From NCBI GenBank assembly GCA_024644595.1, contig JAHEHL010000002.1, forward strand, positions 289,774-353,773: 64,000 bases of DNA. Direction: 5' to 3'. A model generated the notes under the pieces. The model saw only the letters and a program-made list of their open reading frames with translations, had not been told where the DNA came from and searched no databases. The DNA is from Porticoccaceae bacterium (GTDB taxonomy: Bacteria; Pseudomonadota; Gammaproteobacteria; Pseudomonadales; Porticoccaceae). Below, piece by piece: positions 59,214-63,670 of the stretch (its first letter is position 1; each line of letters begins with the position of its first letter). The translations under genes and the position numbers were made by a program.

Positions 59214-59855
59214 TCAGTTGAGTCCTGAAATATAGTTGGCCACCGCTTTAATTTCTTTATTGCTCAGGCGCTCTGCAACGCCCTGCATAATTTTCGCGTT
59301 GGCGCCGCTTGCGCGTTCGCCACTGCGGTATTTCAACAGCTGGCTTTCAATATAGTCAGCGTGCTGTCCACCTAGCGCCGGATAACCTGCAGGGCCATTG
59401 CCCGTGCCGGCAGGCGAATGACAACCGGTGCAGGATGGAACACCGGTTTTGAGATTGCCGCCGCGGTAAACATTTTCACCCAACTCCAGCACTTGAGAAG
59501 GTTCGCTGTAACCGATCAGAGTAATGTCCTGGGCACCGGCAATCTGACGTTGCTGACTATTGTAGTAAGCCGCCATATCGTGCAGATCCTGATCTGAAGA
59601 GGCGTCGAGCAGACCCGTCATTTCAACAATTGCGCGCTCACCGGACTGGATATTTTTCAACTGAGTGTAAAGATAGCTTTCACCCAGGCCAGCCAGCTTG
59701 GGAAATGATGCAACCATGCTGTTGCCATCACCACCATGACAGCCTGCGCAAACCGCTACCTTGGATTTTCCTGCCGCTGCATCACCGGATGCCAGAACCT
59801 GGTTAGCCGTAAATGCTGCTACCAGACAAATAATTGTTAAAAAGCTTTTTTTCAT
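59214..59855 (-). CDS. Dihaem cytochrome c4
   Basis: Two CxxCH motifs (CAGCH, CTGCH), signal peptide, duplicated cyt c layout. Confidence 0.93.
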
Positions 59856-59997
59856 GGTTAATCAACTCGTGCAATCCGCTAGAATGGGTTTCGTCGGTTC
59901 AGATGATGTCATCTGTCCCGTAGCCACGTCGGCTAAAGCGGGCGCATTATATACCAACATGCGCCAACTCTTACAGCGAGATAATGACCCTTTATTC

Positions 59998-60636
59998 ATG
60001 GATTCCCCTCATATTGATTATAAGCGCGTGACATTTCTCACCAGCGCACCCTCTCTGAAACAATGTCCTGACGATCTGGGCTGTGAAATTGCGTTTGCCG
60101 GACGTTCAAATGCTGGCAAATCGAGCGCCATTAATACGCTGACACGAACCAAAGGGCTGGCAAGAACAAGTAAAACCCCTGGCCGCACCCAGCTGATTAA
60201 CTTTTTTGAGCTGTCTAACGGTAAGCGCCTTGTCGATCTCCCCGGCTACGGCTATGCCAAAGTGCCTATCGCGATGAAGCGCGAATGGGACAAACATCTA
60301 GCCGAGTATCTGCAGATGAGACAGAGCCTTGCCGGCTTGGTTCTGCTTATGGATATTCGCCATCCACTGCAGGAGTTTGATCTGCAAATGCTCAACTGGG
60401 CAGCGCAAGCCGGTTTGCCCGTGCATATTTTGTTAACCAAATCAGACAAGCTCAAGCGCGGCCCTGCCCAGAGCGCTCTGCTTGGCGTCGAGCGCCATCT
60501 CCGCGATATGGATCCGGGTTGCACGCTGTTGAGCGCGCAGGTTTTTTCTTCGCTGAAAAAACAGGGGCTACCAGAACTCGAGTCGGTACTTGGGCATTGG
60601 ATGAGCGCAGACTTTGTCGAAACTGCCGGCGGATGA
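59998..60636 (+). CDS. engB: Ribosome biogenesis GTPase EngB/YsxC (an upstream ATG at 59959 is an alternative start)
   Basis: [54 protein letters not shown]. Confidence 0.94.
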
Positions 60637-60659
60637 CAAAAGACTAAAAATCAACAGAC

Positions 60660-60767
60660 AAAAAAATCCCCGGTCCAATGTGGACCGGGGTTCTGCGTTG
60701 CCTTGCTTGGGAGTTTCAGCGTTGCAGTTGCTTAGTTTGGGGGAGAGTAAGCAATCATGTCTTGCAC
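60660..60767 (-). ncRNA. Candidate small RNA in the polA-engB intergenic region (Spot 42/ErsA-position sRNA)
   Basis: Minus strand: ECF-like GAACTA-N15-TCTTA, about 105-nt transcript, 7-bp hairpin TTGCTTA/TAAGCAA with CTCTCCCCC loop, strong terminator CCCCGGTCCA/TGGACCGGGG + T7. Confidence 0.7.
60661..60690 (-). terminator. Rho-independent terminator (minus strand)
   Basis: CCCCGGTCCA-cat-TGGACCGGGG-ATTTTTTT on the minus strand; the plus strand lacks a T tract. Confidence 0.9.
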
Positions 60768-60771
60768 TTAG

Positions 60772-60797
60772 TAAGACAGGCTAAAACGAAATAGTTC
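60772..60797 (-). promoter_or_regulatory. Candidate RpoE/AlgU-type promoter of the sRNA
   Basis: GAACTA (60797-60792), 15-nt spacer, TCTTA (60776-60772). Confidence 0.45.
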
Positions 60798-60889
60798 ACA
60801 AAATAATTAAAAAAAGTGAAATTTATGCTAATTGTTCCGACGAGGGCCTGGTATAGGCCGTTTCACGCGGCACCTCGCTTGAAAACTGC

Positions 60890-63670
60890 CTAATGTGCCT
60901 CATCCCAGTTATCGCCCACACCCACGTCGACAACTAGCGGCACCAATAACTCAGCCGCACCCTGCATACGCTCACAGAGACCCTGCTTGACGATCTCAAG
61001 TTCAGGCTCGGGCACTTCCAACACCAACTCATCGTGCACCTGCATAATGATTTTGCTATGCAGATCGCTCTCTTGAAGCCAATTGTGCACATTAATCATC
61101 GCCAACTTGATAATATCTGCCGCCGTTCCCTGCATCGGCGCATTGATTGCAGTGCGTTCGGCGGCCTGGCGGCGCATACCGTTTCTCGAATTAATTTCGG
61201 GCAGATACAGGCGGCGGCCAAAGAAGGTTTCGACGAACCCGTTTTCCGCAGCGCTGTAGCGAATATTGTTCATATAGTTCTGCACCCCAGGGTAGCGGGT
61301 GAAATATAGCTCTATATATTCCGCGGCTTGCTTGCGGCCAATACCTAGCTGCCGCGCTAACCCAAATGCCGACATGCCATAAATAAGACCAAAGTTAATC
61401 GCTTTTGCACTGCGCCGCTGTTCACTGGTGACGTCTGCGGTGGCTACAGAAAAGACTTCCGCTGCCGTCGCGCGGTGAATATCTTCGCCGGCACTAAAGG
61501 CCGCCAGAAGGCTTGGGTCCTCGGAGAGGTGGGCCATTATGCGCAGCTCAATTTGCGAGTAATCCGCTGCCACCAGCTTACTTCCGGGCGCTGCGATAAA
61601 GGCTTGGCGCACGCGACGCCCCTCTGCTGTGCGGACTGGGATGTTCTGCAAATTGGGGTCTGAGGATGACAGCCGCCCGGTGGCGGTTCCAGCCTGATGA
61701 TATGACGTATGAATGCGACCGGTAACCGAGTTAATCATGGTCGGCAGCTTGTCAGTGTAGGTAGATTTGAGTTTCGCCAGGCCACGGTGTTCAAGCAGTA
61801 CTTTTGGCAGCGGGTAATCCAGCGCCAACTCTTGCAGCACTTCTTCCTTGGTAGAAGGAGCACCTTTGGCGGTCTTCTTCAGTACCGGGATAGCCAACTT
61901 TTCAAACAGTATTTCTCCGAGCTGTTTCGGCGAAGCGAGGTTAAACTGCTGTCCTGCAAGCTCCCAGGCTTGGGTTTCCAGCTCGGCAAGTCGTTCTGAC
62001 AGCTCCTGACTTTGTTGAAATAATAATGTGTCATCAACCAAAGCGCCGGTGCGCTCAATGCACGAAAGAACGGGTATCAGCGGCATTTCAATAGCAGAAA
62101 AGACCTTACTCAAGGCCGGCTGCGCTGACACTTTTGGCCACAGCACCTGATGTAATCGAAAGGTGATATCAGCATCTTCAGCGGCATAGGGGGCGGCCTG
62201 TTCCAGTGGTATCTGGTTAAAGGTCAGCTGTCCCGCCCCTTTGCCTGCGATATCGGTAAATTTCACAGTCTCTTCATTGAGATAATTGAGCGCTAAGCTA
62301 TCCATATCATGACGCGAGGCCACCGAGTCAACAACATAGGATTCAAGCATGGTGTCAAAGGCAACGCCACGCAGGCTAATGCCATGCTGGGCCAGCACAC
62401 TCATGTCATATTTCAAGTTTTGACCGATTTTTTTATACGCCGGATCTTCCAGATAAGGGGTCAGTGCATCAAGCACATGCTCGCGGTCAAGCTGCTCTGG
62501 AGCGCCCAGATAATCGTGAGCAAAAGGAATGTAGGCGGCCTCTCCAGGCGTCACTGACAGGGAGATCCCCACCAATTTAGCACTCATATAGTCGAGGCTG
62601 GTGGTCTCGGTATCAACAGCGACCAGCTCGGCGGCTTTTATCTTGTCGATCCAGGTGTTTAGATCTGAATCGGTTAAAACAACATGATAATCTCGGCTGA
62701 TCTCGGGATGTGGCTCTGGGCTAACCTCAGCATTTGTGTCTGCTGCTGCAGCGGTGGTTGTTTTGTTGACGGCTGCAGAATCGCTTGATGTATCACCGGA
62801 CTGGACCTCTTCGATCCACGTTTTAAACTCCAGATCCTTGAACAGCGCCAGCAGTTCCGATTGATCTGGCTCGCCATTGCGTAATTCGCTGAGGTGGACG
62901 GACATTTCAACATCAGTTTTGATGGTTGCCAAAGTATACGAGAGATAGGCGAGCTCTTTATTTTCGGCAAGTTTGGTGGACATGGTCTTGGCTCCGCGAA
63001 ATTCGAGGCCGGCGACGTCGTCCAGACGGTCATAGATCGCGTCCAGTCCACCAATGCCCTGCAGCAGCCCCAGCGCAGTCTTCTCGCCCACACCTGGAAC
63101 TCCTGGAATATTGTCAGATTTATCACCTAGCAGCGCGAGATAGTCGATAATCAACTCCGGCGGGATACCGAATTTTTCAATCACCCCTGCCCTGTCGAGC
63201 GTTACGTTGTTCATGGTATTGATCAAGGTAATGTGTTCATTGACCAGCTGGGCGATGTCTTTGTCACCGGTAGAAATAATCACCGGCTGTTGAGCTGCTG
63301 TGGCTTGCACTGCCAGCGTACCAATCACATCATCGGCCTCGACGCCGTCAATAATCAGCATCGGCAAACCCATAGCCCGAATAATCAGGTGGATCGGTTC
63401 AATCTGAACGCGCAAATCATCCGGCATCGGTGGACGATTCGCTTTGTAGGCAGTGTAAATCTCGTCGCGGAAGGTTTTTCCCTTCGCATCAAAGACCACC
63501 ACAACCGTGCTCTCGGGATAGTCCTTCTGCAGCCGACGAATCATATTGATCACACCTTTTACGGCACCGGTCGGCTTGCCTTTGCTATTAGTCAGGGGTG
63601 GCAAGGCGTGGAAGGCACGGTAGAGATAAGATGAGCCATCGACCAGAATCAGCGGGGTATCTGTGTTCAT
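60890..63670 (-). CDS. polA: DNA polymerase I
   Basis: [59 protein letters not shown]. Confidence 0.97.

Follow-up and report, generated by a model that had tools for sequence, protein, structure and literature searches.

The short intergenic space between polA and engB/ysxC in the window (the whole 64,000-nucleotide stretch analysed here) raises the question of whether it carries just the end of the polA transcript or a small RNA (sRNA) gene of its own and, if the latter, what that RNA does. An earlier note on this DNA had placed an sRNA candidate between the two genes, a position that profile matches of PolA and EngB/YsxC confirm; the candidate gene occupies the minus strand at 60660-60800. 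The RNA, conserved and previously unannotated, is a probable repressor of an outer-membrane nutrient receptor, and RNAs like it are found at the same place in many gammaproteobacteria. We put at roughly 0.7 the probability that it is a sigma-E-induced sRNA that represses a TonB-dependent receptor (TBDR) through pairing of a C-rich loop with a G-rich ribosome-binding site (RBS), within a polA-adjacent group that includes ErsA and resembles sX13.

The genome from which the window comes amounts to 2.38 Mb in 10 contigs. The closest named record to a 319-aa PolA fragment was a Porticoccaceae MAG (83% identity), whose polA locus is similar to the region that follows polA in G033, one of the genomes in the window's genus. 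Our reading of this PolA-based placement is that the organism is SAR92-like.

Anatomy of the element

The features of the locus are as follows.

60890-63670, minus strand: polA, upstream and co-directional neighbour of the sRNA (NF004397, 1212.7 bits)
60792-60797, minus strand: -35 element GAACTA, sigma-E/RpoE-like; GAACT invariant in 28/28 aligned genus members
60772-60776, minus strand: -10 element TCTTA, 15 nt from the -35 (sequence match)
60660-60766, minus strand: predicted sRNA of about 107 nt, its 5' end placed by typical sigma-E spacing
60748-60754, minus strand: hairpin 1, 5' arm TTGCTTA of a 7-bp stem
60739-60746, minus strand: loop seed UCUCCCCC, where mRNA is predicted to pair; all genus members share TCTC and two C, and the complement lies at the TBDR RBS
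60728-60734, minus strand: hairpin 1, 3' arm TAAGCAA of the 7-bp stem
60697-60713, minus strand: single-stranded pyrimidine patch CUCCCAAGCAA..., the second conserved one, with almost no variation in the ACUC(U)CCAAG-type columns
60668-60690, minus strand: intrinsic terminator stem-loop of 10 bp (8 G-C), with two-sided changes in the genus
60660-60666, minus strand: terminator U-tract of 7 T, with one A between stem and T run
59761-60636, plus strand: engB/ysxC, convergent neighbour with its stop at 60636 (TIGR03598, 238.8 bits); the true start probably lies downstream of the listed TTG

The promoter GAACTA-N15-TCTTA described earlier is present at 60797-60772 on the minus strand, and its assignment to the RpoE/AlgU type holds at the level of sequence, with GAACT...GTC in all 28 aligned copies; the GTC (60777-60775, minus) is unchanged throughout. 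This promoter scores 9/12 against the E. coli-type sigma-E consensus, for which the survey threshold was 10, and many members of the genus have a complete GGAACTT...GTCTAA promoter. A sigma-70 promoter scan found none. The window's genome encodes one RpoE above the NCBI cut-off (307 bits vs 236) and an hfq gene, and the sRNA looks switched on by envelope stress, a sigma-E dependence suggested by its promoter. Upstream of rpoE in the same genome is a GAACTA-N16-TCTGT sequence (L093), possibly an autoregulatory sigma-E promoter.

Within the predicted transcript, the perfect 7-bp stem and C-rich loop were found as had been claimed (60754-60748 / 60734-60728), the stem enclosing CTCTCCCCCAAAC and the hairpin loop reading CUCUCCCCCAAAC. 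An A/C-rich stretch with the second pyrimidine patch lies between hairpin 1 and the terminator, and this patch may be a second pairing site or an Hfq site. The 10-bp GC-rich terminator with seven Ts is likewise in place, ending at about 60660. The predicted fold of the RNA (-31.5 kcal/mol) is more stable than those of shuffled sequences (z -3.0).

A loose scan for a promoter, a terminator and a C4 run gave 7 combinations in 128 kb of window strand, the element among them, and taken alone within the window the element is statistically unremarkable; its significance comes from conservation, not from window statistics. The chance occurrence of such combinations would suit another explanation, that the element is only the terminator or 3' end of the polA transcript, with promoter and loop there by accident. 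The terminator is strong and co-directional with polA, and no earlier polA terminator is obvious, both as this explanation would expect.

Conservation in the genus

The genus set comprised 35 genomes (that of the window and 34 relatives), of which 31 were readable downstream of polA. In 29/31 readable loci (28 aligned copies and G007), the promoter, UCUCCCCC (or UCUCUUCCCC) and the terminator persist while the flanks diverge, so the conservation in close relatives on which the candidate had been staked is borne out. The invariant alignment columns are the promoter GAACT and GTC, GCAA near the 5' end, and TCTC and CC in the loop. In the terminator, 9/11 predicted pairs have changes on both sides in the genus alignment, a pattern of compensatory change. 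A recognisable element is absent in two of the 31 readable loci (G027 and G033), and the sRNA is lost or degenerate at L034, L039 and L237 (G027, G033 and G430).

The retention of the promoter in nearly all readable loci is hard to reconcile with a mere polA 3' end, and so is the arrangement of some loci. In six genomes (G003, G007, G015, G020, G024 and G028, at L031, L075, L033, L038, L035 and L029) a gene on the opposite strand separates polA from the sRNA; we call it GFA-like by appearance, not by family search. In G016 (L036/L009) a different gene intervenes. Promoter, loop and terminator remain together in all of these loci, which argues that they form an independent transcription unit, distinct from the polA 3' end. 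Together with the strand asymmetry across the order (see below), this makes the polA-terminator explanation very improbable, and an sRNA gene with its own promoter is the reading followed here.

The sequence of the stem around the C-run is clade-specific (TTGCTTA/TAAGCAA; CATATTCT/AGAGTATG; ATCTC/GAGAT; AATTCTC/GAGAATT), yet the C-run usually stays in the loop, as it does in 23/28 minimum-energy folds of the genus. Of the C-runs with at least 4 C, 61% fall in hairpin loops in the genus, as do 69% of those from other families, compared with 14-15% in shuffled sequences. A different minimum-energy fold, in which CUCU pairs with a 5' AGGG in place of the 7-bp stem, is predicted for several close relatives. 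This competing fold would hide part of the CUCU and counts against the preferred explanation.

The element had also been described as containing no open reading frame. One 8-codon ORF does lie inside it, encoding MIAYSPPN across the loop, but relatives do not keep it. A coding or dual-function RNA could account for the ATG...TAA frame, which runs across the loop in the window and in a number of its close relatives. Other clades (G005, G016 and G017) retain neither the start codon nor the frame, however, and no Shine-Dalgarno sequence precedes the ORF. The ORF was rejected as not conserved, and we give a coding function hardly any credence.

Covariance searches show how far this conservation reaches. 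The genus covariance model matches the window at 60660-60771 with 88 bits, the window sequence itself belonging to the model, and it finds the sRNA in other genera of the family at 31 to 54 bits. Beyond the family, matches are marginal, with a best score of 20 bits (L088). In another genus of the family (g23), two tandem sRNA copies are present at L104 and L106 (G256 and G113), each preceded by a GGAACT -35-like sequence, and L102 carries a second related copy.

A TonB-dependent receptor as candidate target

The conserved loop had been suggested to pair with GGGGAG-type ribosome-binding sites, and a complement of the loop is indeed present at the RBS of one recurrent TBDR gene. The search used the pattern GGGGGAGA-N2-10-ATG in six genus genomes, with no gene chosen beforehand, and returned 3 to 7 sites per genome. 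With the sRNA's own antisense set aside, one gene recurred in 6/6 genomes; its protein has a TonB-dependent receptor plug domain and a signal-peptide-like start, and in the window's genome it lies at C4:519499. Across the genus, GGGGAGA precedes the ATG in 26/27 TBDR leaders, and leader positions -10 to -4 are 93-100% conserved, compared with about 48% upstream. The leader can itself fold into a hairpin, AUCUC-GGGG-GAGAU, with UUCUC...GAGAA as the form of another clade. A later, narrower pattern search, which misses the commonest leader form, hit a single site per genome in 8 genomes and gave no site with the reversed control; its sites match the receptor starts of the leader comparison.

The calculations of RNA accessibility and interaction energy are rough. 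Full-length duplex energies are dominated by long gapped pairings and so failed to set the receptor leader apart from other genes; the energy of a contiguous seed was adopted in their place. The uninterrupted seed reaches -20 kcal/mol, a value equalled by 29/20000 random 60-mers. The clade-4 pairing that had been predicted (UCUCUUCCCC loop with GGGGAAGAGA leader) was not found, the leader of G005 being AAGGAGAGA; in this genome loop and leader have both changed, and a 7-bp match with a G-U pair remains. The clade-3 sRNA (AAUCUCCCCCGAGAU) is a poorer fit to its own leader than to those of clades 1 and 2. Co-evolution of loop and leader is thus unsupported beyond a retained 7- to 8-bp core, with no detailed co-variation. 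In G029 and G013 (L408 and L409), a paralogous second TonB-dependent receptor has GGGGAG ahead of its start codon, which would make it a possible second target.

These data are compatible with a simple circuit. Upon envelope stress, RpoE (sigma-E) would transcribe an independent, trans-acting sRNA that displays CUCUCCCCC in a hairpin loop and is ended by its own terminator. The C-loop would pair with G-rich ribosome-binding sites, with the TBDR mRNA as the best-supported target, whose leader UAUCUCGGGGGAGAUCUAUG is predicted to keep the 8-nt complement within a small hairpin of its own. Pairing of loop and leader would block ribosome loading, and less receptor would be made. The computed support consists of the promoter-like sequence, conservation, the loop, the terminator, recurrence across order and class, and conserved target complementarity; from it we infer transcription, sigma-E dependence, binding, repression and use of Hfq.

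A sigma-E sRNA would be expected to act on outer-membrane proteins, and the TBDR was the sole recurrent gene in an unbiased six-genome search; both points weigh against the main competing view, which accepts a genuine sigma-E-dependent sRNA but places its main function in other mRNAs and ascribes the G-rich TBDR leader to something else, such as a strong or structured RBS or another regulator. That view draws on the second conserved pyrimidine patch and on G033 and G430, which keep GGGGAGA in the TBDR leader and have no recognisable sRNA, so that another constraint may act there or the loss of the sRNA may be recent. It would also agree with ErsA and sX13, each of which has several targets (PMC8545128; PMC3771888). 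We regard it as unlikely, though the strongest of the alternatives. A sponge that titrates Hfq or an Rsm/Crc-type protein in place of base pairing could explain the A/C-rich single-stranded stretches on both sides of the C-loop; no repeated GGA or AAnAAnAA motifs were seen, the loop sequence is conserved and its complement recurs at one RBS, and a sponge is scarcely to be expected here. Repression of the TBDR by the C-loop is the reading carried forward. It would give the SAR92-like Porticoccaceae, which are marine and little studied, a concrete envelope-stress circuit with a testable target among receptors of the nutrient-uptake type.

Recurrence downstream of polA and comparison with known RNAs

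The group as defined here comprises RNAs downstream of polA with a sigma-E-like promoter, a C-run of at least 4 in a hairpin loop and an intrinsic terminator; the window RNA has all of these features, its promoter (9/12) falling one below the survey threshold. Using the E. coli-type sigma-E consensus, 126 polA-downstream regions of 700 nt from 37 families of the order were surveyed. A sigma-E score of at least 11 was reached in 31/126 sense regions, against 1 antisense and 1.5 shuffled. A score of at least 10 with a terminator was found in 52 sense and 3 antisense regions, and adding a C-run of at least 4 left 48 sense regions (19 families) and 0 antisense; the count expected for promoter, terminator and C4 from unrelated loci is about 0.8. 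Among 69 further gammaproteobacterial regions, one per family, 19 sense and 2 antisense were positive. Named records with the signature include Pseudomonas (ErsA), Microbulbifer and Methylococcales, and it was not found in the Vibrio, Shewanella, Enterobacterales or betaproteobacterial records tested.

The positional group with sigma-E-like promoter and C-loops is therefore order-wide and occurs across the class. Sequence similarity fades outside the family, so homology at these ranks rests on place, promoter and architecture. Rfam misses such RNAs, as their sequence turns over while place, promoter and loop persist. At gathering and relaxed thresholds it gave no family for the window RNA; ylbH and anti-hemB were rejected as identities, the matches resting mainly on the terminator. 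Among the surveyed loci, Rfam named only ErsA within the window's order, sX13 in Stenotrophomonas, and anti-hemB once (L318, 550-639, minus strand; 57.8 bits, cut-off 49.5). The anti-hemB RNA of Burkholderia is possibly another member of this polA-downstream group. ErsA exceeds the Rfam cut-off in the window's order only in family f21 (Pseudomonas-type matches). In another family of the order, G220 carries a tandem pair of RF01719-like RNAs (L057/L069) spaced by about 200 nt, which score 40.1 and 34.8 bits, below the cut-off.

Spot 42 (spf) is a CRP-regulated RNA of carbon metabolism that shares the polA-adjacent position. The view that the window RNA is not recognisably Spot 42 was upheld, with no match to RF00021 in the window at E up to 10, and the Vibrio polA-downstream regions tested, in contrast to the window RNA, lack the sigma-E/C-loop signature. 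The proposal that the window holds a lineage-specific member of a polA-engB positional group, outside Rfam's ErsA and Spot 42, is supported by its retention across the genus. The enterobacterial sigma-E sRNAs MicA, RybB and MicL follow the same logic as proposed here from a different locus, and they pair through their 5' ends or other single-stranded regions, not through a C-rich loop. Salmonella sigma-E sRNAs are described as lowering outer-membrane protein synthesis (PMC1804206). The alpha-r7 sRNAs of alphaproteobacteria are reported, like the window RNA, to lie near polA, and to have C-rich apical loops (PMC3771888).

The closest parallels are ErsA and sX13. ErsA (Rfam RF01719, Pseudomon-1) has the same polA-engB place, a sigma-E/AlgU-type promoter, C-rich hairpin loops and a terminator; it is controlled by AlgU and, with Hfq, represses the oprD porin mRNA at its translation initiation region (PMC7264166). 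Its reported targets also include algC. The window RNA likewise lies between polA and engB, co-directional with polA, and matches the RF01719 model over its full length on the correct strand, at 15.6 bits (E = 1) and below the cut-off of 50. The C-runs of ErsA lie in a middle hairpin and inside the terminator stem-loop, whereas that of the window RNA is in the first hairpin and its terminator loop has 3 nt. By analogy, the window RNA would work like ErsA while standing outside RF01719 by score. sX13 (RF02232, Xanthomonadaceae) is also encoded just downstream of polA with C-rich loops, and its apical loops pair with G-rich motifs near start codons (PMC3771888). It has three stable stem-loops, is reported to be Hfq-independent and has no sequence similarity to the window RNA, which has one C-rich hairpin loop and a single-stranded patch in place of three C-rich apical loops. 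RF02232 had no match in the window, with the Stenotrophomonas locus L315 scoring 121 bits as a control; no sigma-E-like promoter was found at this one sX13 locus inspected, and sX13 has not been described as having such a promoter.

In 2013 the sX13 authors raised the question of whether comparable C-loop RNAs occur at other polA loci (PMC3771888), and the survey answers that they do, widely. It also links ErsA and sX13, which no paper among those searched mentions together. A broader reading, which we hold tentatively and at somewhat less than even odds, is that the polA-downstream site of Gammaproteobacteria houses one ancient, fast-diverging sigma-E C-loop sRNA gene; ErsA and the Porticoccaceae RNA, and perhaps sX13 as well, would be local forms of this gene. 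Its constant role would be to lower outer-membrane protein under envelope stress by pairing with G-rich ribosome-binding sites, and the Porticoccaceae contact would be a kissing of C-loop and G-loop at the TBDR RBS. On these analogies, the window RNA is best described as joining the place and promoter type of ErsA to an sX13-like mode of C-loop pairing.
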